A model generated the notes under the pieces. That model had not been told where the DNA came from and ran no database searches. It saw only the letters and a list, made by a program, of their open reading frames with translations. A program made the position numbers and the translations under genes. This document shows, piece after piece, positions 27,923 through 45,711 of a stretch of DNA of 64,000 nucleotides; within the stretch, counting starts at the first letter, position 1, and each line of letters opens with the position of its first letter. This DNA comes from Microbacterium sp. RU1D (GTDB lineage: Bacteria > Actinomycetota > Actinomycetes > Actinomycetales > Microbacteriaceae): the NCBI RefSeq assembly GCF_900156435.1, contig NZ_FTPQ01000001.1, forward strand, positions 992,001-1,056,000, given 5' to 3'.

Positions 27923-28507
27923 TCAGCCGAAGATCGAGGAGATGATGCTCGCGGTGTAGCCGGTGGGCGCGAGGTTGGAGTACTGGGTGTCGACCAGGAC
28001 GTCATCGCGCCAGAACAGCGTCCGCCCGTCGTTGACGGGGTAGGTGTCGTTGATCCAGGTCTTCTCGCAGCGGGTGCCCTCGTCGGGGGTGTAGCAGCTG
28101 AAGCCCTGCGTGGAGACGAGGTCGTTGAGCATGTCGAGCGCGGGCCCGCGGTCCACGCGCGAGATCGTCGTCGTCAGGCTCGTCGTGTCGGCGGCCGGGT
28201 CGCGCCAGATGCAGATCAGCGAGCCGTCGGACTGCACCCCCGACGGGCCGAGGGCGGGATCGTTCAGGGGCACCGTGCCGAGTTGCGCGAGCACATCGGG
28301 TGTCAGCATCGCGCGGCAGTCCGCGGGGATGCGCACCGCGGTCGCCGTCTGCGTGATCGTGGGGATCGGGGTGGGACTGCTCGAGACGACCGGAGCGGTC
28401 TCCTGCGGCGCCGACTCGTCAGCGGAGGGGGCGCACGCCGCCAGCGCGAGAGCGGCCGCACCGACGACAGCGGCGACGAGGGCCGTGCGAGTCGGGCGAC
28501 CGGACAT
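27923..28507 (-). CDS. Putative lipoprotein, paralogue of the convergent neighbour
   Basis: 194 residues. The signal peptide ends in the lipobox ALAAC (Cys about residue 25), so it should be a membrane-anchored lipoprotein. A Ser/Pro/Thr linker precedes a Cys-containing domain (DCRAML, LICIWRD, GFSCYTPDEGTRCE). The C-terminal half is related to the gene at 27309-27908. The start is supported by a minus-strand TAGGCT at 28514-28519, 6 bases before ATG, i.e. leaderless. Role unknown. Confidence 0.78.
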   Translation of the reverse strand: MSGRPTRTALVAAVVGAAALALAACAPSADESAPQETAPVVSSSPTPIPTITQTATAVRIPADCRAMLTPDVLAQLGTVPLNDPALGPSGVQSDGSLICIWRDPAADTTSLTTTISRVDRGPALDMLNDLVSTQGFSCYTPDEGTRCEKTWINDTYPVNDGRTLFWRDDVLVDTQYSNLAPTGYTASIISSIFG

Positions 28508-28513
28508 GTGTTC

Positions 28514-28519
28514 AGCCTA
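28514..28519 (-). promoter_or_regulatory. -10 hexamer TAGGCT for the lipoprotein gene
   Basis: On the minus strand TAGGCT ends 6 bases before ATG 28507, the leaderless arrangement. Confidence 0.45.
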
Positions 28520-28589
28520 TGTGTCTCTTCGGGTCCAGGCGAGACGCACATCCGCGGCACGCCTCCCGACCGACACGCCGGACTCGGGT

Positions 28590-28595
28590 TAGCCT
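28590..28595 (+). promoter_or_regulatory. -10 hexamer TAGCCT for the repeat-bearing membrane protein
   Basis: TAGCCT lies about 30 bases before ATG 28626, and the ribosome site GAGGAG (about 28615-28620) sits in the short leader. Confidence 0.4.
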
Positions 28596-28625
28596 GTGGC
28601 CGCAAGTACCGCGTGAGGAGACCCC

Positions 28626-29762: not shown

Positions 29763-29784
29763 GCCGGATGCGAATCCGGTCGCT

Positions 29785-30267
29785 ATGACGAATGAGCCGC
29801 GACCGGCGGGGGTCACCCCGCCGGTCGCGGTCGTCTTCGCCTCCGTCACCTTCATCGCCCTGTCCATCGGCGGCCTCGGGGTGGCCAGCCTCGTGCTGAA
29901 CGCCGATGTCATCCCCGTACGCGGTCTCGGTGCGATCCCCGGCGTCATCGGCCAGGTGGCCGCTCTCGCCCTTTTCGCCGGCGTGCTGATGTGGGGCCTC
30001 AAGGCGGACCCGCCGAGCTACCTCACGGCGATCCCCTGCGCCATCGCGGCGTTCGTGGGCGAGGCCGCCGGCATCGTGGTCGGCGCGCTCGTGAGCGGAG
30101 CCGATCCGGCGCGGGGCGTCGCCGCCGCGGGGAGCGTCGCGCTGGGCTTCCCCGGACCCGTCGTCGCCGCGGCGGGACTGCTCGCGGGATTCCTCGGCGT
30201 GTTCCTGTGCCGCACGGGGGCGGAAGGGCCGCGGTGGCGCTGGGAGGACGACGAAGATGCCCCGTGA
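29785..30267 (+). CDS. Small four-helix membrane protein, unknown function
   Basis: 160 residues with four hydrophobic segments (about 14-38, 50-70, 80-105, 118-145) and a short acidic tail WRWEDDEDAP. Nothing identifies a function. ATG 29785 follows the preceding gene by 22 bases, so the two may be co-expressed. Confidence 0.7.
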   Translation: MTNEPRPAGVTPPVAVVFASVTFIALSIGGLGVASLVLNADVIPVRGLGAIPGVIGQVAALALFAGVLMWGLKADPPSYLTAIPCAIAAFVGEAAGIVVGALVSGADPARGVAAAGSVALGFPGPVVAAAGLLAGFLGVFLCRTGAEGPRWRWEDDEDAP

Positions 30268-30409
30268 CGGCGGGCGTCGGCGCCGTCGTGCGTCCCTGTC
30301 GCCCAAGCATTCCGGTCCGGGCGCGGCCGTGACCGCCGCCCCGGCGCACTCACCGCCCCGTCCTGGCGCGTTCGCGCCGTGGCATCCGCACCTCTCGGGC
30401 GTGTCGCAC

Positions 30410-30415
30410 TAGCGT
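30410..30415 (+). promoter_or_regulatory. -10 hexamer TAGCGT for the gene at 30423
   Basis: TAGCGT ends 7 bases before GTG 30423 without a ribosome site, suggesting leaderless transcription and supporting this GTG. Confidence 0.45.
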
Positions 30416-30422
30416 AGGGGCC

Positions 30423-31085
30423 GTGGAGCGGTCGCTCGAAAGCCAGGTCAGCCAGGCGGTGGATGCCTGGCTGCGGTGGTTGCCGCGCTGGGAGCCCGCC
30501 AACCACCGCGGTCGCGTCGCCCCGTGTCGTCGCTGCTTCGGGTCGCCGGTGCTCTCCGCCGCGGGTCTGGGCTCCGACGTGCCGCACGGGGTGCAGCACG
30601 GACTTTCGACGCGCGTGAAGGGGATCGTCGACCACGCCGTCGCCGACTACACCTCCCGCAACCTCCCAATGCTGCAGGCCGAGCTCGACCAGCAGGCCGA
30701 GCGCAACCGCCGTCGTTCGTACCGCCCCGCCGAGGGTCTCGAGCCGGAGTTCGACGGGATGCCGCTCGACCCCGACCCCGAACCCGGGTCACCGTTCCTC
30801 TTCACCCTCTCGGGTCTGGCGGCGCAGGAGGATGCCGAGATCCCGGCCCTGCCGCCCCTCTCCGACGAGGCGAAGGCGGCGCTGCGGCAAGAGGTCGGGT
30901 TGGCCGACGATTACGCCAACATGATCGGGCGCGAGGTGTGCACGATCCTGCTGCACCATCGCCTGCGCATCCAGGCGGCAGTGGCCGAGTACGTCGAGCC
31001 GCAGATCGCGGCCCTGCTCGACGACCTCACGCGTTCCCTCGACGCACCGTTCGATCCGCGCGAGCCCGACACTCCAGCATCCTGA
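30423..31085 (+). CDS. Conserved cytoplasmic protein of unknown function
   Basis: 220 residues, no signal peptide or membrane segment. A CRRCF motif near residue 35 may be part of a metal site, though only this one Cys pair and a later VCTILL Cys are present. The middle is acidic (PEFDGMPLDPDPEPG) and the C-terminal third is helical, with MIGREVCTILLHHRLRIQAAVAEYVEPQI. I do not recognise a named family. It lies just upstream of the kinase gene, but a separate -10 hexamer precedes that gene. Confidence 0.65.
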   Translation: MERSLESQVSQAVDAWLRWLPRWEPANHRGRVAPCRRCFGSPVLSAAGLGSDVPHGVQHGLSTRVKGIVDHAVADYTSRNLPMLQAELDQQAERNRRRSYRPAEGLEPEFDGMPLDPDPEPGSPFLFTLSGLAAQEDAEIPALPPLSDEAKAALRQEVGLADDYANMIGREVCTILLHHRLRIQAAVAEYVEPQIAALLDDLTRSLDAPFDPREPDTPAS

Positions 31086-31149
31086 GCGGCCGCGCCCTCA
31101 CCGGTGGTGACCTGTGCACAACGCGCAGGGCCAGGGGAGGCTGCTTTGT

Positions 31150-31155
31150 TAGCAT
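31150..31155 (+). promoter_or_regulatory. -10 candidate TAGCAT for the kinase/envelope operon
   Basis: TAGCAT within TTTGTTAGCATCG lies about 55 bases before ATG 31211, in the 125-base gap after the preceding gene. No good -35 is seen. It is the most likely start of the long operon that runs to 45711. Confidence 0.45.
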
Positions 31156-31210
31156 CGACGGGTTGTGCGCACGCGGGGTCGCGAGCGCGTCGTTCGGGGG
31201 AGGGGGCTCG

Positions 31211-32347
31211 ATGCCGCAGCGACTGCCGTCATCGCCGCCCATCCTGCCCGGGCTGGCGTACATCCGTCCTTTGGGGTCGGGCGGCTTCGCCGACGTCTTC
31301 CTCTACGGGCAGAACATGCCGCGCCGCGACGTCGCGGTGAAGGTCCTGCCGAGCGACGTGCGCGACACCGACCTGCTGCGCATGTTCAACGCCGAGGCCG
31401 ACGTGCTGGCGCACCTGTCGGCACACCCCTCGATCGTCACCGTCTATCAGGCCGGGATCTCGGCCGACGGTCGCCCGTACATCGTGATGGAGTTCTGCCC
31501 GGGGTCGCTCGCGCAGCGCTACCGCGTCGAGCGCATCCCGGTGGACGAGGTGCTGTCGATCGGCGTGCGCATGGCGGGCGCCCTCGAATCCGCGCACCAC
31601 GCGGGCCTGATCCACCGCGACGTGAAACCGAGCAACATCCTCGTCACGACCTTCGGCGCCCCGGTGCTCGCCGACTTCGGCATCTCGTCGTCTCTCGTGC
31701 GACAGGGCGCCGACGAGATGCTCGCGATGAGCGTGCCGTGGAGCGCCCCCGAAGTGGTCGCGGAGCAGACGGCGGGCACGGTCGCGAGCGAGGTGTGGAG
31801 CCTGGGGGCCACCGTGTATTCGCTGCTCGCGGGACACAGCCCGTTCGAGCGGCGTGAGAAGGGGCAGAATTCGCGCGAGCACCTGCGTCGGCGCATCGCG
31901 CGCGCCTCGTACACGGCCATCGCGCGCTCCGACGTGCCGGAGGCCGTGCAGGACGTCCTGGCGAAGTCCATGGCGCGCGACCCCGCCCAGCGGTACCCGA
32001 GCGCTCGTGCTTTCGGGGAGGCGCTGCAGGCGGTCCAGGCCGAGATGGGCGTGCCCGCGACCCCGCTCGAGGTGCCCGCCGCCGAGTGGAGTCCCGCCGC
32101 CCGCTCGATCGACTTCGCCGACAGCACCGTCCGCGGCCCCGCCCGCTCCCGCATCGAGCGCGAGACCTCCCGCAAGACGCGCGATTCCTCGGGCATCACC
32201 GGGTACGTGCGCGACGAAGACACCGACATCGCGGCGCCGGTCTCGACCGCGTCCCGGGCGCTGCCCTGGGTGCTCGCCTCGGCGACCTTGGTCACCGCCG
32301 GCGCCGTGGTGGTCGCCGCGCTCTACGCCACGGGGGTGCTGCGGTGA
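31211..32347 (+). CDS. Membrane-anchored eukaryotic-type Ser/Thr protein kinase
   Basis: 378 residues. The kinase domain (about 10-275) is complete: glycine loop LGSGGFADVFLYG, ATP-binding Lys in VAVKVLP, catalytic loop HRDVKPSN, DFGIS, and APE in WSAPEVV, so it should be active. A ~75-residue Arg/Ser/Thr-rich juxtamembrane stretch follows. The only transmembrane helix is at the very C-terminus (LPWVLASATLVTAGAVVVAALY), leaving a handful of residues outside. Unlike PknB it has no sensor domain of its own; the next gene, overlapping by GTGA, encodes a giant ectodomain protein. A GGGGGAGGGGG ribosome site precedes ATG 31211. FHA-domain partners are encoded in the same operon. Confidence 0.93.
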   Translation: MPQRLPSSPPILPGLAYIRPLGSGGFADVFLYGQNMPRRDVAVKVLPSDVRDTDLLRMFNAEADVLAHLSAHPSIVTVYQAGISADGRPYIVMEFCPGSLAQRYRVERIPVDEVLSIGVRMAGALESAHHAGLIHRDVKPSNILVTTFGAPVLADFGISSSLVRQGADEMLAMSVPWSAPEVVAEQTAGTVASEVWSLGATVYSLLAGHSPFERREKGQNSREHLRRRIARASYTAIARSDVPEAVQDVLAKSMARDPAQRYPSARAFGEALQAVQAEMGVPATPLEVPAAEWSPAARSIDFADSTVRGPARSRIERETSRKTRDSSGITGYVRDEDTDIAAPVSTASRALPWVLASATLVTAGAVVVAALYATGVLR

Positions 32348-35300
32348 AGCGCCGAACCCTGGTCGGGCTCGCCTCCACCCTGGTGGCCGCGACGCTCGTC
32401 GTGACAGCGAGCATCGTGTGGCCGGGGCTCGATGCGCAGCAGACCCCCGAGGTCGACACCTCGGTCTGGGCGCTGCAGACCGGCGAGGGGCAGCGCTACG
32501 CCCGCGTCAACACCACGGTGGGCGAGCTCGACACCGTGCGCACCGCGGGCAACCCCAGCCAGGTGGCGCAAGCGGGCGACGGCGCCTATCTCTTCACCGA
32601 CAGCTATAGCAAAATCACCCGCATCGACGAGGCGAGACCCGTCGACCTCGAGCAGGACCAGCTCGAGGCCGCTCCCGACACTCCGCCCGGAACCACCTCC
32701 GTCGCGACCGCCGGCGACTACGTCGTCTACCGCACCGACACGGGGGCGCTCTTCGCGGGGCGGTTGAGCCAGGCCGGGCAGCGCGCCGCCGAACTCGACC
32801 CCTTCGGCACGGCCGGCGACGACGAGGCCGTGTCCTACACGGCGGATGCCATCGCCCTCGACGACCGCGGGATGCTCTTCGCGTACTCGTCCGTCGACCA
32901 GTCCGTCATCCGGTACGACATCGACGCCGACGAGGTGCGCGCGCGCGATGTGCTCGATGTCACCGCGACCGCTCCGGTGCTCTCGGCGGCCGGCGACACC
33001 TGGGTGCTCGTCGACCCCGAGGCGGGCCGCGTGTGGGCGCGGGGCGCCGACCCGGTCGACATCGAGATGGGGGAGCAGGTCTCGGTCGGCGACGCCGACG
33101 CCACGGCCGACGCCGTCTTCCTCGCCGACGACCAGTCGCTGTGGACGATCCCCACCGACGGCTCCGGCCCCCGTCGCGAGGTCGGCGGGGGTGGCAACGT
33201 CCTGGGGCAGCCGGCCCGCCCCCTCACCCATCAGGGCGTGACGTACGCCGCGTGGCTCCTCCCGGGCGAGAGCCGCGGCGCGCTCTGGCGGTCAGACCAG
33301 GGCGAGACCGACCTCGACTACGGCGGCGCGACCATGCCCGACCAGCGTCGCCCGGTCTTCGTCGCGACCGACCACGCCGTCATCCTGAACGAGACGCGCA
33401 CCGGGTGGGTGTGGACCGTCCCCGACGGTGCGCTCGTGGCATCCAGTCAGAACTGGTCGCTCGACGACCGCACCGAGGAAGCCGCGGTCCAGAGCCAGGA
33501 GCAGCTGAGTGTCGTCCTCGACCCGAAGCCCCCCATCGCCGAGCCTGACGCCTTCGGCGTGCGGGCGGGGCGTCTCACCACGCTCCCGGTGCTGCTGAAC
33601 GACCATGACCCCAACGAAGACGTGCTGAGCATCGTCGCCGACAGCGTCACCGGTCTCGACCCCGGCTTCGGCACGCTGTCGCTGACCGACTCCGGACAGC
33701 GTCTGGCGGTCCGCGTGCAACCCGGAGCCACCGGCACCGCCACCTTCTCCTACGCGGTGACCGACGGCACGACGGCCGACGGACTCACCTCGGCGCCGGC
33801 GACGGTCACCCTGACCGTGTCGCCGGCCGAGTCCAATGCGGCCCCCGTGTGGTGCGGCACGGACACGTGCCTGCAGCCGTGGCCGACGCCCGAGGTGGCG
33901 CGCGGGGGCACCATCACGGTTCCCGTGCTGCCCGGGTGGGTCGATCCCGACGGCGACCCGCTCCTGCTGCTCTCGGTCGACAACCCCGGCGGCGTCGGTT
34001 CGGTCGCCTCGACCCCCGGCGGCGACGTCGTCTACCAGCACGCCGACGACGGGTCGGGCGGCGAGCAGAGCATCCAGCTCGACGTCACCGTCGCCGACAC
34101 CGGCGGGGCCACCACGACCAAGCCCCTCGTCATCCGGGTCGCGCCGGATCCCACGCTCTCGGTGCAGTCGTTCGCCACCATCGACACCGTCGGCACCTCG
34201 CTCGCCGTCGACGTCGGCCCGCACGTGACGGGGACCGCGGGAGAGGTGACCCTGGGCTCCGTGCGGGTGCTCGACGACGCGGCGGCGACAGCGACGGTGG
34301 TCGGCGGCAGCACCGTGTTCGACTTCGCGGCGTCGGAGCCCGGCGTCTACCGGGTCGACTTCACCGTCAACGCGGGGGGCCGCGACGCGACCGGCACCGC
34401 GCGCATCACGCTGCTGCCCGGCGACGCACCGGCGCAGCTGTCGACGTCGCCGGTCGTGGCCTTCGTGCGTCCCCAGGAAGACGCGACCCTCGACGTGTTC
34501 ACCGCGGTCTCGAACCCCACCGGACGCGTGCTCCTGCTGAGCGACGTGACGCCCGCCGCCGAGGACGGGGCTTCGCTCACCGTCGACACCGTGGGCCAGA
34601 ACGACCTGCGCGTATCGGGGTCGACCGCCGACGGCGGAGCCGGCCTGCTCGGAACCGTCGGCTACGCCGTGAGCGACGGAACCGACGACGAGGGTTCCCG
34701 TGTCTCCGGCGAGGCGACCGTCTACCTTCTCCCGCCGGCACCCGAGATCGCACCGATCGCCGTCGACGACACGGTGACGGTGCGCGCGGGTGCGCAGATC
34801 GACATCCCGGTGCTCGACAACGACATCTCCCCGGCCGGTGGCCGTCCCACCCTCGACCCCTCGAGCGTGCAGGCCCAGCCCGCGAGCGACGCGCTGGCCT
34901 TCGCCTCGGGCGGCGTGCTGCGCTACCTCGCGCCCACCACGCCGGGGGCCTACGAGGTCACCTACCGCGTCTACACCACCGGGACGCCGGCGCTGTGGGA
35001 CGAGGCGACCGTGCGGATCACGGTCCTCGGCAGCGAGGCGAACCGCGCGCCCCTGCCCGAGACCCTGCAGGGCCGTGTGTTGAGCGGGGGCACGACGACC
35101 GTCGACTTCCGGGCCTTCGGCGTCGACCCCGACGGCGACGCCGTTTCGCTCGACCGCATCGTCGCGCAACCCGACCGGGGGACGGCATCCATCTCTCCGG
35201 ACGGGTCGTCGATCGTGTATTCGTCGGTGCCCGGCGATCGGGGCCAGGTCTCGTTCCGGTACCGGGTCTCCGACTCGGACGGCGCCACGGGCGAGGGCAC

Positions 35301-38295
35301 GGTGCGCATCGGCATCCTGGATGCCGAGACCAACCCGAGCCCCATCACCTTCACCGACTACGTGCAGGTGCAGGCCGGCGGTGAACGCACGATCCGCGTC
35401 AGTCCGCTCGCGAACGACATCGACCCCACGCAGGGACGCCTGACCCTCACGGGTGTGCGGCCCGACCTGCCCGAGACCCTCGTCGACGGCAGCGCGAACC
35501 CCGAGTACGCGCGCCTCGACGGGTTCGTCGAAACCGTGACCGACACGGGCGTCGTGCTGCGCGCCGGCGACGAGCCCGGCACGATGTCGTTCCTGTACGA
35601 CGTCGAATCCGACTCGGGCAACACCGGGCGCGGACTCATCGTCGTCAAGGTCGTGCGGGAGAGCGTCCCCGATTACCCGGTCGTCACCGACACGGTGCTC
35701 ACCGTCGAGAACCGCGACGATTTCACCACCGGGGTCGACGTCGTCGCGGGGCGCGCGACCTGGTCCGGGGGAGAGGTCGCCGACCTCGACGTCTCGCTCT
35801 GGGGCCAGCCGACCGATGTGCGCCTCGATGGACGGCGCATCTCGGGCGAGCTGCCGGCGACACGTCGCGTCATCCCGTTCGCGGTGTCCGGACGAGTGGG
35901 CGACACAGACGTGACCACGTACGCGTTCCTCCGCGTCCCCGGCGACGACGACCTGAGCCTCGCGCTGCGGCCCGGTTCGGCGCAGCGGGTCGATGAGCTG
36001 TCGTCCGTGCAGTTCGACATGGCATCCCTCGTCGCCCTCCCCCGTCGCGCTACGCTCGAGGTCGGTACCGACGTCTCCACCACCGGCGTCCGCGCCGAGG
36101 GCCGCTGCTCCGTAACCGGGTCCGTGGTGCAGTACGACGCCGGCGCGGGCTCGCCGTGGACCGATGCGTGCCAGGTGCCGGTGCGCGTGGCGGGGACGCA
36201 GGACTGGACCGTGCTCTCGGTGCCCATCGGTGTCGTCGCGCGCGACCCGCAGCCCGAGCTGCGGCCCGGTTCGCTGACGGTCGGTCCCGGCGAGACGGCG
36301 ACGTTCGACCTGCGCAACATGACCTCGTGGCAGCTCGGGCGTGAGGACTGGGCCGGCATCCGCTACGCGCTCGACTACAGCGGATCCGCCTTCCAGGTCT
36401 CCCTCGACGGGTCGATCGTGACGGTGGTCGGTGGCGACCGCGCCGTTCCCGGAACCGACAACGCCGCGGTCATCGCGGTCACCAGCCACAATGCGGTGGC
36501 ACCGGCGCGACTGGTGCTCCGCGTGGGAGCCGCCCCCTCGACCCTGCCCCAGGGCGGCACGACCTCGTCGCAGTGCTCGCAGGCGCAGGGCTCGAGCTGC
36601 TCTATCGACGTGATCGGCATCAGCGGCGAGGTCAACCCGCTGCCGCGCACCCCGCTGGAAGTCGTGGGCGTGCGGCCCACGGCCGCCTGCACCGGCGTGT
36701 CGTTCGCGGTCGGGTCGACCTCGAGCGTCGTCGCCTCGTGGACGGCCGACGCCCCCGGCGCCACGTGCAGCGCCAGCGTGACCCTCCGCGACGCCCAGGG
36801 CCGCTCGACCGCGTCGACGCGCGACGCCCGCGTCGTGCTCGACCTCCTCGGCTACCCGCGCGCCCCCGCGAGCGTGCGCCAGACGGCCTTCGCCGACGGG
36901 TCGCTGACGCTCCGCGTCGACCCGGGCGAGGCCCGCCGCGCGTACCCCGCGCTGGCCGGGTTCACGGTCCGCTCTCGCGGGGAGGTCGTCGCCCAGTGCG
37001 GACCCGACGGCGGGTGCCCCGTGATCTCCGCCCCGAACGGCGAGCAGCGCGAGTACGTCGTGACCGCCGTGAACAGCGTCGGCGAATCCCGCGGCGCCGT
37101 CCGCACGACGGCGTGGGCCTACGCCTCGCCCGACAAGCCGAAGTCCGGCGACTTCGCGCCCGTGGACAACGGCGGCGACGGGGGCGTGGCCGACCTGACC
37201 ATCCGCGGCATCGACGCGGCCGAGACCGGCAGCCTCGAGATCGTCAGCGCCGCGGGACAGAAGCGCACCGTCGACATCGGCCGCAACCAGGAGAACGTCT
37301 CGATCGACGCGTTCCCGGTGGGCAGCAACTCCTCCACCCAGATCACGGTGACCCCGATCTCGCGCTTCACCGTGCCGCCGGGGCTCGGCGGCTCGCAGAG
37401 CGGTCAGGCGCTCGTCTTCACGGCGCACGGCGTCGGCAAGCCGCAGCAGCTCTCCCTCACGCTCACCTCCGAGCGCGAGGGCGGCGGCAAGGTCACGATC
37501 GTCGCCGAGGGCTCGGCGTCGAAGAACGGCGACGGCTCCGAGGTGCGCTACGGCTTCGCCATCGACGGCTCGTGCCGCGTCGGCGACGACGGGCCGCGCC
37601 GCGAGTTCCCGGGCAAGGACGACGGCGTCACCTACACGGTCCGCATGTGCGTCGATTCGGTCTACGCCGGCTCGAGCTTCGGTTCCGACCAGACCGAGAA
37701 GAGCATCGACGCCGCGCAAGACACCACCGCTCCGCAGGGATACACGTTCCGCGTCGGGTCGAAGCCCGACGTGAGCGGCGACACGGCCCGATGGAGGATC
37801 AGCGGCATCCAGGAGGGGACCAAGCCCCCGCGCAACAACAGAGTCGTCTACGACAACTGGAACGACGGCACGTCGGTCTACGACAGCGACCCGGACATCG
37901 GCGTCTACTTCCAGCACAACGTCTGGCAGACGCGTTCCGAGCGCGGCCAGGTGAAGCCGGCATCCGGCAGCGCGCCGTACCAGGTGCAGGCGACGGCTCG
38001 CATCGACTCCTGCGTCGCGGGCAGCGAGCTGAAGCTCGGCTGGAAGACCAGCAACGGCGAGGCGCGCACCTCCACCGACCGCTCCGGGGTCGTGTACTAC
38101 GACAAGAGCGGCAAGAAGCTCGACGCGAGCGACCCGACCGTCGTCCCGAAGGGCGCGGTGCGCGTCGAGAACGCGAAGCTCCTGGTCAGCTGGTCCGCGA
38201 AGGGCTGGGGTCTCGACGACGCCACCCTCGTCACCGGCGGCGCCTGCGACCCCGGCAAGGCCGACCCCTCGCAGCCGCCCCAGGGCGACGACTGA
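32344..38295 (+). CDS. Giant surface protein with Ig-like/cadherin-like and FN3-like repeats
   Basis: 1983 residues. A basic N-terminus and one hydrophobic helix (RTLVGLASTLVAATLVVTASIVWPG) anchor it with the rest outside; no sortase motif or C-terminal helix exists. Residues about 35-390 may form a beta-propeller-like region. From about 400 come Ig/cadherin-like tandem domains of the Big_9 type, recognisable by PVLLNDHDPNEDVLSI, VLPGWVDPDGDPLLLLSV, PVLDNDISPAGGRPTL, RAFGVDPDGDAVSLDRI and SPLANDIDPTQGRLTL. Asp-rich turns suggest calcium binding. From about 1498 FN3-like domains follow (YPRAPASVRQTAFADGSLTL). GTG 32344 overlaps the kinase stop. It is probably an adhesin, wall-spanning scaffold or sensor of the kinase. 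Confidence 0.85.
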   Translation: MKRRTLVGLASTLVAATLVVTASIVWPGLDAQQTPEVDTSVWALQTGEGQRYARVNTTVGELDTVRTAGNPSQVAQAGDGAYLFTDSYSKITRIDEARPVDLEQDQLEAAPDTPPGTTSVATAGDYVVYRTDTGALFAGRLSQAGQRAAELDPFGTAGDDEAVSYTADAIALDDRGMLFAYSSVDQSVIRYDIDADEVRARDVLDVTATAPVLSAAGDTWVLVDPEAGRVWARGADPVDIEMGEQVSVGDADATADAVFLADDQSLWTIPTDGSGPRREVGGGGNVLGQPARPLTHQGVTYAAWLLPGESRGALWRSDQGETDLDYGGATMPDQRRPVFVATDHAVILNETRTGWVWTVPDGALVASSQNWSLDDRTEEAAVQSQEQLSVVLDPKPPIAEPDAFGVRAGRLTTLPVLLNDHDPNEDVLSIVADSVTGLDPGFGTLSLTDSGQRLAVRVQPGATGTATFSYAVTDGTTADGLTSAPATVTLTVSPAESNAAPVWCGTDTCLQPWPTPEVARGGTITVPVLPGWVDPDGDPLLLLSVDNPGGVGSVASTPGGDVVYQHADDGSGGEQSIQLDVTVADTGGATTTKPLVIRVAPDPTLSVQSFATIDTVGTSLAVDVGPHVTGTAGEVTLGSVRVLDDAAATATVVGGSTVFDFAASEPGVYRVDFTVNAGGRDATGTARITLLPGDAPAQLSTSPVVAFVRPQEDATLDVFTAVSNPTGRVLLLSDVTPAAEDGASLTVDTVGQNDLRVSGSTADGGAGLLGTVGYAVSDGTDDEGSRVSGEATVYLLPPAPEIAPIAVDDTVTVRAGAQIDIPVLDNDISPAGGRPTLDPSSVQAQPASDALAFASGGVLRYLAPTTPGAYEVTYRVYTTGTPALWDEATVRITVLGSEANRAPLPETLQGRVLSGGTTTVDFRAFGVDPDGDAVSLDRIVAQPDRGTASISPDGSSIVYSSVPGDRGQVSFRYRVSDSDGATGEGTVRIGILDAETNPSPITFTDYVQVQAGGERTIRVSPLANDIDPTQGRLTLTGVRPDLPETLVDGSANPEYARLDGFVETVTDTGVVLRAGDEPGTMSFLYDVESDSGNTGRGLIVVKVVRESVPDYPVVTDTVLTVENRDDFTTGVDVVAGRATWSGGEVADLDVSLWGQPTDVRLDGRRISGELPATRRVIPFAVSGRVGDTDVTTYAFLRVPGDDDLSLALRPGSAQRVDELSSVQFDMASLVALPRRATLEVGTDVSTTGVRAEGRCSVTGSVVQYDAGAGSPWTDACQVPVRVAGTQDWTVLSVPIGVVARDPQPELRPGSLTVGPGETATFDLRNMTSWQLGREDWAGIRYALDYSGSAFQVSLDGSIVTVVGGDRAVPGTDNAAVIAVTSHNAVAPARLVLRVGAAPSTLPQGGTTSSQCSQAQGSSCSIDVIGISGEVNPLPRTPLEVVGVRPTAACTGVSFAVGSTSSVVASWTADAPGATCSASVTLRDAQGRSTASTRDARVVLDLLGYPRAPASVRQTAFADGSLTLRVDPGEARRAYPALAGFTVRSRGEVVAQCGPDGGCPVISAPNGEQREYVVTAVNSVGESRGAVRTTAWAYASPDKPKSGDFAPVDNGGDGGVADLTIRGIDAAETGSLEIVSAAGQKRTVDIGRNQENVSIDAFPVGSNSSTQITVTPISRFTVPPGLGGSQSGQALVFTAHGVGKPQQLSLTLTSEREGGGKVTIVAEGSASKNGDGSEVRYGFAIDGSCRVGDDGPRREFPGKDDGVTYTVRMCVDSVYAGSSFGSDQTEKSIDAAQDTTAPQGYTFRVGSKPDVSGDTARWRISGIQEGTKPPRNNRVVYDNWNDGTSVYDSDPDIGVYFQHNVWQTRSERGQVKPASGSAPYQVQATARIDSCVAGSELKLGWKTSNGEARTSTDRSGVVYYDKSGKKLDASDPTVVPKGAVRVENAKLLVSWSAKGWGLDDATLVTGGACDPGKADPSQPPQGDD

Positions 38296-38337: not shown

Positions 38338-39303
38338 ATGACGATCACCCAGGAGCAGGCCACCTGGTTCTCCCAGACCTTCTCGCAGATCGCCGACAAC
38401 GTCGAGCGCGCCGTGCTCGGCAAGCGCCACGTCGTCGAGCTGGTGCTGACCGCCATGCTGAGCGACGGGCACGTGCTGCTCGAGGACGTCCCCGGAACGG
38501 GCAAGACCTCGCTCGCCCGAGCTGTCGCGCAGTCGGTCCAGGGCACGAACACCCGCATCCAGTTCACGCCCGACCTCCTTCCCGGCGACATCACGGGCAT
38601 CACCGTGTACGACCAGAAGAGCGGCGCCTTCGAGTTCCACAGCGGGCCCATCTTCGCCAACATCGTGCTCGCCGACGAGATCAACCGCGCGAGCCCCAAG
38701 ACCCAGTCCGCCCTGCTCGAGGTCATGGAAGAGGGCAAGGTCACCATCGACGGCGTCTCGCGCGAGGTGGGGGTGCCCTTCCTCGTCCTCGCCACGCAGA
38801 ACCCGGTCGAGCAGGCCGGCACCTACCGGCTGCCCGAAGCGCAGCTCGACCGCTTCCTCTTGCGCACCTCACTCGGGTACCCCGATCACGCGGCGACGGT
38901 GCGCATCCTCGACGGCGCGTCCGTGGCGACCGGCGACCTGCGTCCGATCATCACGCCCCAGGCCCTGGTCGGAATGGCCGACCTCGCGGCATCCGTCTAC
39001 GTCGACGCTCTCGTGCTCGACTACATCGCGCGTCTCGTGGATGCCACCCGCACGGCCGACGAGGTCCGCCTCGGCGTGAGCATCCGCGGCGCGCTCGCCC
39101 TCACCCGCGCCACGCGGGCGCGGGCCGCGTCGCAGGGCCGCACCTACGCGACGCCCGACGACGTCAAGGCGCTCGCCGTTCCCGTGCTGTCGCACCGGCT
39201 CATCCTGCATCCCGAGGCCGAGTTCGACGGGGTCACGCAGGAGGCCGTCGTCGGCCAGGTGCTGCTCGACACGCTTCCGCCCACGCAGCGCGAGAGCGCG
39301 TGA
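38338..39303 (+). CDS. MoxR family AAA+ ATPase
   Basis: 321 residues. Walker A is LEDVPGTGKTSLARA, Walker B is IVLADEINRASPKTQSALLE, sensor 1 is VLATQNPVEQAGTYRLPEAQLDRF, and the C-terminal lid carries SIRGALALTRATRA. MoxR proteins are chaperone-like ATPases that act with DUF58/VWA partner proteins to mature or insert cofactors or assemble complexes. A DUF58 gene follows directly, the standard pairing. AGGAAG lies upstream of ATG 38338. Confidence 0.95.
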   Translation: MTITQEQATWFSQTFSQIADNVERAVLGKRHVVELVLTAMLSDGHVLLEDVPGTGKTSLARAVAQSVQGTNTRIQFTPDLLPGDITGITVYDQKSGAFEFHSGPIFANIVLADEINRASPKTQSALLEVMEEGKVTIDGVSREVGVPFLVLATQNPVEQAGTYRLPEAQLDRFLLRTSLGYPDHAATVRILDGASVATGDLRPIITPQALVGMADLAASVYVDALVLDYIARLVDATRTADEVRLGVSIRGALALTRATRARAASQGRTYATPDDVKALAVPVLSHRLILHPEAEFDGVTQEAVVGQVLLDTLPPTQRESA

Positions 39304-39342: not shown

Positions 39343-40719
39343 GTGCCTGATCCGCACCTCACCGAGTCGCGGCTCACGCGCGCCTCGGCGGCGACCATGG
39401 CTACGGGCTCGCGCACCTCCATCACCTCCACTGCGACCCGCCGCCAGCGCCGGATCGTGCGCGCTGTGGTGCAGATGGCGGAGTGGTGGCGCGTCGTCAC
39501 CGAGGCGGTCGCGGCGGCCGTGTCGTGGGCCGGTCGCACCGTCCGTCCCGCCGGCGCGGTCGTCGCGATCACCGCGACACTCGGCCTCGGGATCGGCATC
39601 CTCTTCGGCTGGGTCGAGTGGATGGTGGCGGGGTCGATCGCCCTGCTGCTGCTGCTCATGAGCATCCCCTTCCTTTTCGGCGCGCGCGCCTACGAGGTCG
39701 ACCTGGCCCTCGAGCACGAGCGGGTCACCGCCGGACACGGCGTGACCGGCGAGATCGTCGTGCGCAACGACAGTGCGCGACCCGCACTGCCGGGCCGCCT
39801 CGACATCCCCGTCGGTCGCGGTCTCGTGGAGTTCGGCGTGCCGTTCCTCCGGCCCGGGCAGAGCAGCACCGAGCCGCTCGAGATCCCCCCGCTCCCGCGC
39901 GGTGTCGTGAGGGTCGGTCCGGTCACCACGGTGCGCAGCGACCCGGTGGGTCTACTGCGCCGCGAGCACGCGTTCGACGACGTGCACGACCTCTTCGTCC
40001 ACCCACGCACGGTCGCTCTGCCGTCCACGAGCGCCGGGCTCGTCCGCGACCTCGAGGGCAACGCGACCCGGCGTCTCGTCGACGCCGACATGTCGTTCCA
40101 CGCGATCCGCGAGTACGCCCCCGGCGACTCGCAGCGACAGGTGCACTGGAAGTCCACGGCCAAGACCGGGCGGCTGATGGTCCGCCAGTACGAGGAGTCC
40201 CGCCGCTCGCGCATGGCGGTCGTCCTCGGCGCCGCCACGCAGGAGTACACGGATGCCGACGAGTACGAGCTCGCGGTGTCGGCCGCCGCCTCGCTGGGCC
40301 TGCGCGCCGTGCGCGACGCACGCGACATCGACATCGTCACGGGGTCGGAGATCCCCCGGGTGGTGAAGGGCCGGCTGCGCGCGATCCGCCACATCCCGGT
40401 GATCTCGTCGCGCGCGATGCTCGACGGATTCAGTGCCATCGATCGCCACGAGAACACCATGCCGGTCGAAGACGTCTGCCGGCTGGCATCCGAGGCGAAC
40501 GAGCGTCTCTCGATCGCCTTCGTCGTCGTCGGCTCCGTCGTGCCGCTCTCGCGCCTGCGGCAGGCGGCCCTCGCGTTCCCCGCCGACACCGCGGTCGCCG
40601 CCGTCGTCTGCGACGAGCGTGCGCACCCCCGCATGCAGAACGTGGCGGGGCTCACCGTGCTCACAATTGGCACGCTCGACGACCTCTCCGGTCTGCTCGT
40701 GCGGGGAGCCACCTCGTGA
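39343..40719 (+). CDS. DUF58 domain membrane protein, MoxR partner
   Basis: 458 residues. After ~55 basic residues come two transmembrane helices (VVAITATLGLGIGILFGWVEW and MVAGSIALLLLLMSIPFLFG), then a beta-rich domain. The DUF58 signature is IREYAPGDSQRQVHWKSTAK followed by RLMVRQYEES, and a VWA-like fold carries on (RMAVVLG). DUF58 proteins pair with MoxR ATPases. GTG 39343 has a G-rich ribosome site. The gene overlaps the transglutaminase-like gene by GTGA. Confidence 0.93.
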   Translation: MPDPHLTESRLTRASAATMATGSRTSITSTATRRQRRIVRAVVQMAEWWRVVTEAVAAAVSWAGRTVRPAGAVVAITATLGLGIGILFGWVEWMVAGSIALLLLLMSIPFLFGARAYEVDLALEHERVTAGHGVTGEIVVRNDSARPALPGRLDIPVGRGLVEFGVPFLRPGQSSTEPLEIPPLPRGVVRVGPVTTVRSDPVGLLRREHAFDDVHDLFVHPRTVALPSTSAGLVRDLEGNATRRLVDADMSFHAIREYAPGDSQRQVHWKSTAKTGRLMVRQYEESRRSRMAVVLGAATQEYTDADEYELAVSAAASLGLRAVRDARDIDIVTGSEIPRVVKGRLRAIRHIPVISSRAMLDGFSAIDRHENTMPVEDVCRLASEANERLSIAFVVVGSVVPLSRLRQAALAFPADTAVAAVVCDERAHPRMQNVAGLTVLTIGTLDDLSGLLVRGATS

Positions 40720-43226
40720 GTGGCCCCCGCGAGCGCGCGTCGCGGCGCCGTCGAGAGGCGTCGTCGGCGCCGCGCTGGATCGCCGCCGTCGTCTACACCG
40801 CCGTGTCCGTGGCGCTCGCCGCGGTGGCGGCGTGGCCGATCTACGCGGCTGCGTCGTTCATCGTGCTCGTCGTCGCGGCATCCGTCACGGGAGCGGGTTT
40901 GGTGGCGCTCGTCGCGTGGCGCCGGGGGAGCGGGTGGGCGCTGGCGGCCGGACTCGTCGCCGCGTTCACGCTGCTGGCCGTTCCGCTCGCGGTGCCGTCG
41001 CGCCTGACCTCGCCGCTGGATGTGCTCCGAGGGCTCGGGGAGTCGTACGGCGGCGTGGTCGTCGCCTGGAAAGACCTGGTCACCGTCGACCTTCCGGTCG
41101 GCGCCTACCGCAACCTTCTGATCCCCGCGCTCGTGGTGTTCCTCGTCGGCACCGCTCTCGCCCTCTCGCTCGCCGCCCGGAGCGACCGCCAGGCGACCGC
41201 GGCCGTCGTCGCGGGCCTCGGGATGACCGGCTTCGGCCTCTTCTTCGGGCGCACGTCCACGAGCGCCCCGCTCCCCGTCGGCCCCCTCGTCCTGTCCGCG
41301 CCCGTGGAGACGCTCGTGGGTATCTCCGCGCTGCTCTCGGCAGTGCTGTGGCTGGCGTGGCGTGCGCACGACGAGCGCGCCCGCGCCCTCCGGCGTGCGA
41401 GCGACGTCTCCGCGGTGCAGGTCGGACCGGGACGCTCCCGCACCGATCGCCGCCGCGGCGCGCTCGGCGTGGCGATGATCGCGACCGCCGTTCTCGCCAC
41501 GGTCGCGGTCGTGCCGTGGGTCGCCCGCGGCGCGGACCGCGAGGTCCTCCGCTCCGCCGCCGGTCCCGACAGGCAGATCGCCGAGGCCGTGAGTCCGCTC
41601 GCGCAGTACCGCGCCATGTTCTCCGACGCGCGCGCCGACGAGGTGCTGTTCCGGGTGAGCGGCGAGGGGACCCTGCCCGAGCGCATCCGCCTCGCCACCC
41701 TCGACGCGTACGACGGCGAGATCTTCCGCGCCTCGGGCGACGAGGGGTCGGGCTTCGTCCGGCTCCCGTCCACGCGCGACGCGGGGGAGGGCCGGAGCAT
41801 CTCCGCCGACATCGAGATCGCCGATCTCGAGGGCATCTGGATGCCGACCGCCGGCCGTCTCGCCTCGGCGCGCTTCGAGGGCGACCGACGCGGCGCCATG
41901 GCCGACCGTTTCTACTACAGCGCCGACGCTGAAGCCGGGGTGCAGACGGCTGACGGGGGCCTGCGTGCGGGAGACCGCTACGAGCTCGCGGGCGTCGAGC
42001 CCGCCCCCGTCGATCTCGCCTCGCTGACGCCCCCGGGTGCGCCGCAGGGCGTCTCGGGCGGCGACAACCTGCAGAGGTGGGTCGAGGAGCACGCCACCGG
42101 CTCCGACGGCGTGGCCCTGCAGGCCCTCGTGCAGCTGCTGCGCGAGCGCGGATACCTCAGCCACAGCCTCGCCCCCGCGGGTGCCGCCGTTCCGGCGTGG
42201 GCGGCGGATCTCCCCGGTTACCAGCTGCAGCCGAGCGCCTCGGGGCATTCCCTGGCGCGCATCGACCGCATGTTCGAGCGGCTGCTCGACCGCGAGGACG
42301 ATCCCCGTGCGGCGTCGACGGGCAACTACGTCGCCGCCGTCGGCGACGACGAGCAGTTCGCCGTCGCCACCGCCCTCATAGCGCGCGAGCTGGGCTTCCC
42401 TGCCCGGGTGGTCGTCGGAACGCGTCTGGTGGCCGCCGACCCGACCCTGTCGGCGTGCGACGCGGGGGAGTGCCGACCGCGCGACCTGACGGCCTGGACC
42501 GAGGTCCAGGGCACCGACGGCCGGTGGGCGACGATCGACGTCACGCCCCAGTGGGAGCAGTCGCCCAGCCTCGAGGTCACGCAGCAGCGCGATCCCGAGA
42601 ACGTCACCGAGGTGCGTCCCGACACGGTAGAAGAGGTCGTCCCGCCCGAGCCCGTGCAGGAGGACGACTCGCAGAACGACGGCACGCGCTCCGACGACGG
42701 GCTCGACCTCGCCTGGCTCTGGCCCGTGCTGCGCATCGCCGGCATCGGCCTGCTCGTGGTCCTGGTGCTCTTCGGGCCCTTCCTCGCCGTCGTCATCGCG
42801 AAGGCCGTCCGTCGACGCGGTCGTCGACGCGACCCCGACGCCCGCAGCGCCATCGCCGGCGGGTGGGACGAGTACGTCGACGCCGGACTCGACGCGGGCC
42901 GTTCCGTGCCGCGTGCCCCGACCCGCCGCGAGGTGGCCGAGGCGTTCGCGACACCCTCCGGCATCCGCCTGGCCGCCGACGCCGACCGCGCCGTGTTCGC
43001 CGCCGATGACGTCACCGCCGACGAGGTCGCCGCGTTCTGGCGCATCGTCGACGATGAGCGGCGCGTCCTCACCCGTCAGCGCGGCTTCTGGCGCCGGGTG
43101 CGCGCGGCCGTATCGTTGAGATCGTTCCTGCGGTTCCTCGCGCCTCGGCCTCCTCGGCGGGGGTCGCCGCATCGCGACGAGAGGGGGAAGCGTCCCGCCA
43201 CGACGGCCCGACGCGATACGACATGA
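40716..43226 (+). CDS. TgpA-like membrane protein with degenerate transglutaminase domain
   Basis: 836 residues. The N-terminal ~210 form about six transmembrane helices, then an extracellular part, a further helix near 670-695 (LRIAGIGLLVVLVLFGPFLAV) and a cytoplasmic tail. The transglutaminase-like fold is clear in EQFAVATALIARELGFPARVVVG and DLTAWTEVQGTDGRWATIDVTP. The catalytic Cys position (usually G-x-C-E-x-F-A) is Asp in GDDEQFA, and the His position (usually HAWVEV) is Thr in TAWTEV; only the final Asp is kept. It is therefore predicted to be a pseudoenzyme, perhaps a substrate- or peptidoglycan-binding scaffold. It overlaps both neighbours by 4 bases. Confidence 0.88.
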   Translation: MSGPRERASRRRREASSAPRWIAAVVYTAVSVALAAVAAWPIYAAASFIVLVVAASVTGAGLVALVAWRRGSGWALAAGLVAAFTLLAVPLAVPSRLTSPLDVLRGLGESYGGVVVAWKDLVTVDLPVGAYRNLLIPALVVFLVGTALALSLAARSDRQATAAVVAGLGMTGFGLFFGRTSTSAPLPVGPLVLSAPVETLVGISALLSAVLWLAWRAHDERARALRRASDVSAVQVGPGRSRTDRRRGALGVAMIATAVLATVAVVPWVARGADREVLRSAAGPDRQIAEAVSPLAQYRAMFSDARADEVLFRVSGEGTLPERIRLATLDAYDGEIFRASGDEGSGFVRLPSTRDAGEGRSISADIEIADLEGIWMPTAGRLASARFEGDRRGAMADRFYYSADAEAGVQTADGGLRAGDRYELAGVEPAPVDLASLTPPGAPQGVSGGDNLQRWVEEHATGSDGVALQALVQLLRERGYLSHSLAPAGAAVPAWAADLPGYQLQPSASGHSLARIDRMFERLLDREDDPRAASTGNYVAAVGDDEQFAVATALIARELGFPARVVVGTRLVAADPTLSACDAGECRPRDLTAWTEVQGTDGRWATIDVTPQWEQSPSLEVTQQRDPENVTEVRPDTVEEVVPPEPVQEDDSQNDGTRSDDGLDLAWLWPVLRIAGIGLLVVLVLFGPFLAVVIAKAVRRRGRRRDPDARSAIAGGWDEYVDAGLDAGRSVPRAPTRREVAEAFATPSGIRLAADADRAVFAADDVTADEVAAFWRIVDDERRVLTRQRGFWRRVRAAVSLRSFLRFLAPRPPRRGSPHRDERGKRPATTARRDTT

Positions 43227-44905
43227 CCGATTCGACGACGCTGGTGTTGGGAGCGAGTTCGCTCGCTCTGGTCGTGGTGCTCTACGTCTGGTTCGCCCTC
43301 GCCTTGGCCGCGATTTTCCGCAAGATCGGCGAGCCGGTCTGGAAGGCGTGGGTGCCCGTCGTCAACGTCGCCACCGTGCTGAAACTCGGCGGGTTCTCCC
43401 CGTGGCTCGTGCTGATCAACCTCGTGCCCCTCTTCGGCTTCATCGCCTTCGCCGTCGTCTTCATCGTGTCGGTCCACCGCATCAACGTCGGGTTCGGCGC
43501 CGGCGGCGGGCTCACGGTGGTGGGCGCCCTCATCCCGGTCGTCTGGGCCAGCATCCTCGGCTTCGGGTCCGCCCGCTGGAAGGGCGAGACCTCCCGCGGT
43601 GTCGACGAGGATTCCGCGCCCGTCCGCCGCGGACGCGACTTCGACGGACCGTACGTGCCGCTCATCGGCGGGTGGACGCCCGAGCCCGAGCCCGACGCCC
43701 AGCCCGCGGCCGACGACCGCCCCGCCGCCGCGGCGCCGCCGGCGTCCGAGCCGGTCGTGCAGCCGTTCGCCGCCCCGACGGGGTCTTTGGCCGACGCCGT
43801 CCCGTCGCGGAGCGGGTGGGCGCCTCCGGCGGACCTTCGGCCTGCTCGCCCCGACGACCGCCGCTCGAGTGCCCGGCCCGCACCCGCGGAGACGCCCGCC
43901 CCCGCGGCCTCCGCATCGGTCTTCGACGTGCTCGACGCCCTCCGTGACGGCAGCCCCGCCCCGGTCGATGTCGCCCCCTCGTCGCCGGCCTCACGGGACG
44001 CGCCCCCCACCCCCGTCGTTCAGACTCCGGATGCCGAGGACTCGCCGTCCGGCTGGGTCCCCCGTCCCGCGGAGGAGCCGTCGGACCCCGCACCGCACGC
44101 GGATGCCCTCGCCACGCGGGCGCTGCTGCTGCCCGGGACGCCGAGCCGCGGCGGCCCCTCGCGGGCCGGCGCGGCGGACGGGGATGCGGCGTCCGCCCCC
44201 GGGCACGTCGACGATCACGCGCCTATGCCGCAGGATCGACCGGTCGACGGTCCCCTCGGCGAAGCGCCGTCCCCCTGGGCCGGCCCCTCCCGCCGCGGCA
44301 CGGACGCGCCGGATGACGCGCGAGAGAATAGCGCCGAGGCGCCTCTCACGCGCCCTGCCGCCGGGCCTGTTCCAGCCCCGCGCGTCTCCCGCGCCTCCGC
44401 CGACGAATTCCCCGAGCTGTCCGAAGCGGTCTCGGCGGTTCCCGACGCCCCCGACGCGGGCGCTCCGCGCTCCGCGCGCACGTCGGTGTCGGCGCTCTAC
44501 ACGCGGCCCGAGGTGCCGTCCGACGACGACTTCGACGCGCTCGATCGCACGGTCGTGACACGGCGCAAGCGCATCCCGTGGGCGCTGATCGCCCCCAACG
44601 GCGAGACCGTCGATCTGACCTCGTCGGTCGTGATCCTCGGTCGTCGTCCCGGCGCGGATGCCGCGCACCCCGACGCGCAGCTCGTCGGCATCGTCGACGA
44701 GACGCGGACGGTGTCGAAGACGCACGCGCGCCTCGAGCTGCGCGGTGACACCTGGTACGTCACCGACCTGGGCTCGACCAACGGCGTCCTGTTCGCCACG
44801 CTCATGGGCACGGAGGTGGAGGCTCCCCCCGGCGAGGAGATCGAGGCGGGCGAGAGGTTCTTCCTCGGCGACGCGGAGGTGCGCCTGACGCGGAGGAACG
44901 CGTGA
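43223..44905 (+). CDS. DUF5684 membrane domain fused to FHA phosphothreonine-binding domain
   Basis: 560 residues. Residues about 8-120 hold three or four helices with the DUF5684 pattern (IGEPVWKAWVPVVNVATVLKL, VLINLVPLFGFIAF). A 320-residue Pro/Ala/Asp-rich disordered linker follows. Residues about 450-560 are an FHA domain: VVILGRRPG, VSKTHARLEL and VTDLGSTNGVLF give the Arg, Ser-x-x-His and Asn residues that bind phosphothreonine. Just before it is ALDRTVVTRRKR, a likely kinase target loop of the kind that lets FHA proteins bind themselves or partners. The kinase in this operon is the natural regulator. ATG 43223 overlaps the upstream stop. Confidence 0.88.
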   Translation: MTDSTTLVLGASSLALVVVLYVWFALALAAIFRKIGEPVWKAWVPVVNVATVLKLGGFSPWLVLINLVPLFGFIAFAVVFIVSVHRINVGFGAGGGLTVVGALIPVVWASILGFGSARWKGETSRGVDEDSAPVRRGRDFDGPYVPLIGGWTPEPEPDAQPAADDRPAAAAPPASEPVVQPFAAPTGSLADAVPSRSGWAPPADLRPARPDDRRSSARPAPAETPAPAASASVFDVLDALRDGSPAPVDVAPSSPASRDAPPTPVVQTPDAEDSPSGWVPRPAEEPSDPAPHADALATRALLLPGTPSRGGPSRAGAADGDAASAPGHVDDHAPMPQDRPVDGPLGEAPSPWAGPSRRGTDAPDDARENSAEAPLTRPAAGPVPAPRVSRASADEFPELSEAVSAVPDAPDAGAPRSARTSVSALYTRPEVPSDDDFDALDRTVVTRRKRIPWALIAPNGETVDLTSSVVILGRRPGADAAHPDAQLVGIVDETRTVSKTHARLELRGDTWYVTDLGSTNGVLFATLMGTEVEAPPGEEIEAGERFFLGDAEVRLTRRNA

Positions 44906-45711
44906 GCGGCCCGGACGACCGGCCCGACGACCCCGACGAGGTCACACTGTGGGCCGGACGACTGCGCGCGTGGCCGGCCAATCCTCCCGCCGACGCGGAC
45001 GAAGCCGACGTCGACGACTCCGCCGTCCGGTCGGGGGACGACGAGCCGGATGACGCGACGGCGATCGCCCACCCCGCAACGCCCGTCGATGAGCCCGATG
45101 ACGCGACGGTGATCGCCCGCCGCGCCGCACCTGCGGACGAGCCGGATGACGCGACCGTGGTCGCCCACCGCGCGGTCCCCGCCGCCGAGCTCGACGACGA
45201 CACCGTCCGCCGCGCACCCGCGGACGAGCCGACCCGACGCCGCGGCGAGGTCGCCACGCCTCCCATCGACGACGACACCGAACCCGGATCGCGCACGCGG
45301 CGCCCTTCGGCTCTCGTCGAGCCCGACGACAGCACGCGTCCCCGCACCGCCCCCGGTGACACCGACGACACCCGTGCCGGCTCCCGTCGTGCGCGCCGAG
45401 CCGCGTCGGGCGAAGCCTCGTCCGGCGGCGAAGAACCGGCGACCGTTGCTCTCGGACCGGCCGTTCCGGGTGCGCTGCGCGAGGCACGCGTCCCCAGCGC
45501 CCTTCAGCGCGAGAGCTACGACCCGCGGGTCGACGCGCCCATCCGCGTGGAGCGTTCGGTACGCCCCACACTGTCCGCGCCGCGGCGCGACGCGGCGCTC
45601 GTGCGACCGCGGGCGACGCGGGGCAGCGCCTGGCGGGCCCTCCTCATCGGAGCCGCGGTGGTCCTGCTGCTCGCGGCTGCCGCCGGGGCGGCGGTGCTGT
45701 TGCCGGGCTGA
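44902..45711 (+). CDS. Membrane-anchored protein with DEPDDAT(V/A) repeats, unknown function
   Basis: 269 residues. Acidic N-terminal half with at least three tandem ~16-residue units centred on DEPDDATAIAHPA, DEPDDATVIARRA and DEPDDATVVAHRA (residues about 50-95), and a degenerate fourth, AELDDDTVRRAPA. A long basic Pro/Arg/Ser stretch follows, and one helix at the C-terminus (WRALLIGAAVVLLLAAAAGAAVLL) anchors it with the repeats inside the cell. The Thr units resemble the Thr motif before the FHA domain of the preceding gene, so they are probable kinase substrates and FHA ligands (inference). GTG 44902 overlaps that gene (GTGA). It is the last gene of the series. Confidence 0.75.
   Translation: MSGPDDRPDDPDEVTLWAGRLRAWPANPPADADEADVDDSAVRSGDDEPDDATAIAHPATPVDEPDDATVIARRAAPADEPDDATVVAHRAVPAAELDDDTVRRAPADEPTRRRGEVATPPIDDDTEPGSRTRRPSALVEPDDSTRPRTAPGDTDDTRAGSRRARRAASGEASSGGEEPATVALGPAVPGALREARVPSALQRESYDPRVDAPIRVERSVRPTLSAPRRDAALVRPRATRGSAWRALLIGAAVVLLLAAAAGAAVLLPG

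Follow-up and report, generated by a model that had tools for sequence, protein, structure and literature searches.

A TgpA-type protein lacking the catalytic Cys and His in a PFNA-type gene cluster of Microbacterium is probably a retained pseudo-transglutaminase

The window analysed here, 64,000 nucleotides of Microbacterium sp. RU1D, carries a gene for a TgpA-type protein in which the catalytic Cys and His of the transglutaminase domain are replaced. We put at roughly 0.65 the probability that selection maintains this protein, within a PFNA-type cluster, as a membrane-anchored pseudo-transglutaminase that serves as a binder or scaffold; we think it very probable indeed that the protein is no classical transglutaminase. 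Such a Tgm-like protein would perform no transglutaminase or protease chemistry, and its former substrate groove may instead bind a partner outside the membrane, with a wall peptide or the cluster's giant secreted protein as candidates. Binding would then be relayed by the cytosolic C-terminal part to the MoxR/DUF58 proteins and to the kinase and FHA proteins, and the chemistry itself would probably be left to an intact TgpA paralogue of the same genome.

Triad residues are replaced within a predicted transglutaminase fold

The gene and the parts of its product that matter here are as follows.

40716..43226, + strand: putative pseudo-transglutaminase gene (TgpA-type, PFNA Tgm-like); GTG start, 836 aa; TgpA_N + Transglut_core
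40767..41534, + strand: N-terminal helical membrane region, residues 18-273, from model secondary structure; membrane location presumed from TgpA_N
41562..42569, + strand: predicted extracytoplasmic domain, residues 283-618; fold of the TgpA periplasmic domain; pLDDT 85.6, pTM 0.87
42243..42248, + strand: G510-H511, residue pair marking the Cys-less group in the row comparison
42342..42362, + strand: GDDEQFA, residues 543-549, start of the active-site helix; D545 (42348-42350) replaces the nucleophile Cys
42456..42473, + strand: C581 and C586, probable disulfide; pair invariant in close relatives of the window protein
42489..42491, + strand: T592, replaces the catalytic His; TAWTEV at 42489-42506, residues 592-597
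42537..42539, + strand: D608, third triad position, kept; IDVTP at 42534-42548, residues 607-611

Pfam assigned only two families to the protein at E 0.001. For Transglut_core (PF01841; 34.7 bits, cut-off 23; E 2.4e-8), residues 540-608 aligned to positions 49-107 of the 108-position profile, which places GDDEQFA, TAWTEV and IDVTP on the triad stretch; the TgpA_N match (PF11992) scored 30.2 bits, barely above its cut-off of 30. AlphaFold2 models of the full-length protein (pLDDT 77.7, pTM 0.56) and of the extracytoplasmic domain both kept the transglutaminase fold, with D545 opening helix 545-558, T592 within strand 591-598 and D608 directly after strand 604-607. Confidence dropped below pLDDT 50 over residues 484-510, adjoining H511. 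The best solved-structure match of the predicted domain was P. aeruginosa TgpA (6g4h; Foldseek E 5.9e-12), on which the model superposed with Z 19.6 and an rmsd of 3.5 Å over 243 aligned residues; beyond TgpA, only 3isr_C and 3kd4_A reached Z of at least 8 among the matches listed. Sequence searches of the PDB gave no match at E 0.01, and one further search gave a single chance hit (E 1.6), so that for the residue correspondence with TgpA we rely on Pfam and on fold similarity, not on direct alignment. Profile match, model secondary structure and family alignment were concordant, and misalignment of the triad was ruled out. The initial annotation, made from the sequence alone, had read Cys and His as replaced, the Asp of IDVTP as kept and the surrounding fold as intact, and these analyses bear it out on all three points.

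The substitutions are shared by close relatives of a gene under purifying selection

We aligned 111 rows of close relatives, made up of 110 loci and the query P0001 (95 distinct sequences; the window's own gene appears as loci L005 and L006). Position 545 was D in 107 rows and E in 4, never Cys; position 592 was S in 48, T in 32, A in 28 and V in 3, never His; and position 608 was D in 108 and E in 3. E546, Q547, C581 and C586 were present in 111/111 rows. The 79 named loci taken alone gave the same picture (D 76 and E 3 at 545; S 34, T 22, A 21 and V 2 at 592). Since every row has D or E at 545, the substitutions in the window gene are not a base error. Orthologues that keep the Cys-His pair, which would have spoken against a pseudoenzyme, did not appear among the 111 rows, and of the suggestion that Asp and Thr might both be invariant, the Asp proved conserved but the Thr did not. 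The pseudoenzyme assignment itself gains from triad loss in all 111 rows and, as described below, across many genera.

The nearest named matches to the window gene came from an uncultured Microbacterium (89%), M. hydrothermale (87%) and M. testaceum (78%), and the named records of close relatives were mostly Microbacterium; Cryobacterium, Demequina and MAGs also occurred, two of these under the title Propionibacteriaceae. One record among those of Microbacterium, titled Planococcus sp. APC 4015 (L087; gene 57% identical to the window's), is probably a mislabelled or mixed assembly. A search of the window's genome with P0001 returned a single match, the gene itself.

The gene is under purifying selection. 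Whole-gene dN/dS for close pairs was 0.134 (with L036), 0.151 (L037), 0.174 (L040), 0.190 (L038) and 0.188 (L043), and for the transglutaminase (TG) domain 0.088, 0.195, 0.147, 0.063 and 0.102, respectively; a sixth pair, with L062, was set aside as too diverged (0.47 for the whole gene, 0.22 for the TG domain). Among the five regions compared, the TG domain gave the lowest dN/dS in every pair but that with L037, where it ranked second highest. The word "selected" in the initial annotation is thus well founded, the domain that has lost its triad residues being the most constrained region in 4/5 close pairs.

An old Cys-less group among TgpA-like proteins

To place these proteins in the wider family, we gathered 305 proteins from searches with P0001 (matches in 22/148 class genomes and 132/238 order genomes) and with PF11992 (79/98 class genomes), and dereplicated them below 62% identity to 152. 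The Cys was absent in 98, with D (64), S (13), A (8), E (5), G (5) and T, Q or V (one each) at position 545, and the 54 proteins that keep it all retain His and Asp/Glu as well; the sample was largely drawn with a Cys-less query, and 98 and 54 are not frequencies. H511 was found in 94/98 Cys-less proteins (L263 included) and 2/54 Cys-type proteins, the exceptions being L203, L263, L272 and L275 on the Cys-less side and L234 and L250 on the other.

In a tree of 99 rows below 50% identity, of the "quick" kind, with the trait columns left out and no outgroup, 56/57 Cys-less rows fell to the same side of a single branch (SH-aLRT 95). The tree required 2 changes for the Cys, 4 for the GH pair and 9 for the His; L272 forms a long branch of unsure placement. 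The Cys is present in TgpA and in transglutaminases generally, and we take it as the ancestral state for this reason, not from the tree. As judged from these sequences, loss of the Cys is old and common to many genera.

Among the tree rows, His at 511 occurred in 53/56 Cys-less rows (L263 left out) against 1/42 Cys-type rows, Q at 547 in 56/56 against 76%, and E at 546 in 96% against 60%. An independent-pairs test of Cys loss against H511 yielded just 2 pairs: Cys loss looks like one old event, so H511 is to be read as a mark of the group and not as a repeated correlation. Members retain the fold, E546-Q547, W594 and E596, with His and the third residue missing in parts of the group. In sequence terms the constraint has moved: the old nucleophile position varies, and a neighbouring residue has become fixed.

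The remaining Cys-less row, L263, sits among the Cys-type rows of the tree. It carries a lone Cys-to-Ser change (GYSEQAA), groups with Cys-type TgpA, has neither H511 nor a kinase or giant nearby, and is probably a separate, younger loss of the Cys. Two further observations concern the third triad position and the class level. L139, L141-L143, L145, L207 and L208 are Cys-less (GNDEQY/F or GDDEQY) and, as aligned, lack an acidic residue (D/E) at the third position of the triad too. L146, L154 and L264-L278 are class-level Cys-less proteins with G-[TY]-[STAV]-E-Q motifs, several of which adjoin Ser/Thr kinases and none an Ig-type giant.

The gene lies in a PFNA-type cluster

The neighbours of the gene in the window are listed here.

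31208..32347, + strand: Ser/Thr protein kinase, at the pkb2 position of the PFNA order; HRD, DFG and APE motifs; C-terminal hydrophobic stretch; start chosen by eye
32344..38295, + strand: giant protein with Big_9 Ig-like domains, at the fn3 position of the PFNA order; start chosen by eye
38338..39303, + strand: MoxR-type AAA ATPase; GTGKT and DEINRA present
39343..40719, + strand: DUF58 protein; ORF limits
43223..44905, + strand: DUF5684 + FHA domain protein (Pfam)
44902..45711, + strand: 269-aa ORF without a Pfam family; overlaps the FHA gene by 4 bases

Kinase, Ig-type giant, MoxR and DUF58 genes thus precede the Tgm gene, and the DUF5684-FHA gene follows it. The initial annotation had placed the protein in a MoxR/DUF58 system: both genes are adjacent, but the context is larger and, with its kinase, Ig-type giant and FHA genes, amounts to a PFNA-type cluster. 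Further upstream lies rpoC (23170-27045), and rpsL and rpsG, read from frame translations, lie downstream. The scanned frames between rpoC and the kinase (27046-31207) had no Pfam match, and no PrpC-type phosphatase was found there. The product of the 269-aa ORF is acidic and repetitive, with similar frames in 25/79 named loci (flanks up to 3 kb). Within the same flanks, the counts among the 79 named loci were 79 for DUF58, 78 for MoxR, 76 for FHA and 57 for the giant.

We compared context between Cys-less and Cys-type loci of at least 11 kb, leaving out L281 (no TG hit) and L272 (motif unparsed; Cys-less elsewhere) and counting L263 as Cys-less. With kinase and giant detected by likeness to the window's own proteins, such that distant ones can be missed, a kinase was nearby in 22/41 Cys-less and 0/25 Cys-type loci (Fisher p 1.6e-6) and an Ig-type giant in 30/41 and 0/25 (Fisher p 5.9e-10), both p values ignoring relatedness in a set where many loci come from few genera. 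MoxR (40/41 and 25/25) and DUF58 (41/41 and 23/25) accompanied both kinds. All 30 giants came from loci of the window's order; the 11 class-level Cys-less loci had a kinase in 8 and a giant in none, and the group in its entirety therefore cannot be accounted for by a partnership with the giant. No kinase was seen in eight class I loci (L324-L331), which stop in or near the giant, on whose far side the window's kinase lies.

The genome also holds a paralogue in a separate TgpA operon that keeps Cys, His and Glu (GYCVHYA, HSWPEV, FEPT). This intact gene adjoins MoxR and DUF58 genes, with no kinase or giant within 19.5 kb.

Bifidobacterial Tgm probably falls in the same group

Passages of PMC6803598 and PMC8430577 describe a bifidobacterial PFNA operon of pkb2, fn3, aaa-atp, duf58 and tgm, treat Tgm as an enzyme and propose that the operon serves host signalling; phosphorylation of the ATPase by Pkb2 is reported for bifidobacteria in a passage of PMC8430577. 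A Bifidobacterium genus primer sequence occurred in 11/14 genomes of our group f41 and in 0/10 genomes of other groups. Four loci of f41, three from genomes with the primer (L191, L194 and L195) and one from a genome with no exact match to it (L192), read GDSEQY, TAWVEI and FYPTP, retaining none of the triad residues; in the 99-row tree, L191 is placed within the Cys-less group. We regard L191, L194 and L195 as probable bifidobacterial Tgm, the taxon being assigned by primer match and gene order rather than by name. Their products pass the Pfam Transglut_core cut-off and have no TgpA_N match at E 0.001.

The two clusters have in common the order kinase, Ig/Fn3 giant, MoxR ATPase, DUF58 and Tgm, and in both the Tgm is a polytopic membrane protein with a TG domain. 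They differ at the triad, which reads S-T-Y in the probable bifidobacterial proteins and D-T-D in that of the window. The giants of L191 and L194 combine fn3 and Big_9 domains; that of the window has no fn3 match at E 0.001, only Big_9 and cadherin-like families, and for this reason we call the cluster "PFNA-type" and not a member of PFNA.

Passages of PMC6803598, PMC8430577, PMC3507681, PMC10318531, PMC12067865, PMC12239564, PMC3482391 and PMC12096838 make no mention of triad loss in Tgm, and the word "cysteine" does not occur in the main text of PMC6803598. In the published literature searched we did not find the Cys-less group, its marker His or the inclusion of bifidobacterial Tgm in it.

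Alternative readings of the Cys-less proteins

If catalysis was lost, a new chemistry might have taken its place: H511 together with D545/E546 could form a new active or metal site. H511 does separate the Cys-less rows from the Cys-type rows (53/56 against 1/42), and D is the commonest residue at 545 (64/98). That position, however, also accommodates S, A, E, G, T, Q and V, and 592 and 608 vary widely in the Cys-less group; with all three variable, the group cannot depend on one particular acid or nucleophile at these positions. The place of H511 in the fold is itself unsure, as it borders the model stretch 484-510 of pLDDT below 50, and we consider such a repurposed enzyme unlikely. A thiol relocated to C581 or C586 in the window's type is a good deal less probable still. 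The initial annotation had pointed to the cysteines of SACDAGECRP as possible replacements, and they are indeed invariant in 111/111 rows and lie in the loop preceding the former His strand. Across 256 distinct sequences, however, the cysteines of this loop came as a pair or not at all, never singly or in threes (2 of the 305 proteins could not be parsed for this count), which fits a disulfide outside the membrane and made us judge a new thiol unlikely. The spacing was 4 in 124 rows, 3 in 15 and none in 3 (rows not dereplicated), and the pair was missing from 79/81 Cys-less rows outside the window's type.

That the enzyme has been lost and the gene is decaying is a reading to which we give almost no credence. 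It could appeal to the two missing triad residues and to the variation of the His and third positions among relatives, but dN/dS of 0.13-0.19 rules out recent decay, and frame and cluster are retained in the 79 named loci (DUF58 79, MoxR 78, FHA 76). The protein could also act on the intact TgpA, as a regulator or decoy that competes for its substrate instead of serving the PFNA-type cluster. Pseudo-Tgm and intact TgpA do occur together in the window's genome; the neighbours of the former, however, are kinase, giant, MoxR, DUF58 and FHA genes and not the intact TgpA, and we hold this role to be improbable. The preferred reading, a selected pseudo-transglutaminase kept as binder or scaffold, can be carried further, to a proposal that we find doubtful: throughout the Cys-less TgpA group, bifidobacterial Tgm included, catalysis may have been exchanged for a new conserved site (G510-H511, E546-Q547) that reads an extracellular ligand, possibly the giant Ig/Fn3 protein in PFNA-type clusters, and signals through MoxR/DUF58, kinase and FHA proteins. 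A receptor would thereby have arisen from a transglutaminase.

Relation to known transglutaminase folds

In P. aeruginosa, we take PA2875 and PA2874 to be MoxR and DUF58 proteins, and MoxR/DUF58 presumably lies directly upstream of TgpA there also. Passages of PMC3507681, whose text uses neither the name MoxR nor DUF58, report that tgpA is co-transcribed with PA2875 and PA2874, and that TgpA, which keeps its triad, has transglutaminase activity (structures, PDB 6G49/6G4H). The window protein has in common with it the fold, the DUF3488/TgpA_N and Transglut_core regions and MoxR and DUF58 genes directly upstream; it differs in lacking the Cys and His and in neighbours that include a kinase and an Ig-type giant.

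Bacterial inactive transglutaminases are already known from RloB and polymorphic toxins, so the kind is not new. Pfam presumably holds models for the RloB-type inactive group. RloB itself is described, in a passage of PMC12239564, as an inactive transglutaminase fused to seven TM helices, encoded in an operon and with mutant effects. Like RloB, the window protein would be a membrane-anchored bacterial transglutaminase fold without activity, but RloB shares its operon with genes for an ATP-grasp protein and a protease of the retropepsin-like kind, whereas TgpA_N and MoxR/DUF58 accompany the window protein; ATP-grasp or retropepsin-like genes were not among the window neighbours with Pfam matches (kinase, Ig giant, MoxR, DUF58, FHA). 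Inactive transglutaminase domains with at least one triad residue lost also occur in polymorphic toxins, sometimes beside bacterial Ig domains, and peptide binding has been proposed for them (passages of PMC3482391). These are N-terminal in secreted RHS toxins, in contrast to the separate membrane protein of the window, in which the Pfam scan found no toxin domain. EPB42, Rad4, menin and FBXO21 are described as inactive transglutaminase/papain-like folds that, having lost catalytic residues, serve in scaffolding or binding, in unrelated contexts and with no TgpA_N membrane part described in those passages of PMC10318531. USP53/54 illustrate that an annotated pseudoenzyme can prove active (abstract of PMC12037411).

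Automatic annotation calls the Cys-less proteins transglutaminases because the Pfam cut-off can be met without the triad. If Tgm is a dead enzyme across the group, it is a ligand and partners that should be looked for and not a substrate. H511 and E546-Q547 are named residues to mutate, and the TgpA of the same genome, with its Cys, His and Glu, is a natural control.

A second PFNA-type cluster in Microbacterium

A second cluster of the PFNA type (L115-L134, L316-L322) is present in many Microbacterium genomes, and its Tgm is without the Cys. In the 20 loci of this class that were fetched (L115-L134), Asp occupied position 545 in 20/20, His was kept at 592 in 20/20, and position 608 was D in 12, N in 7 and W in 1.
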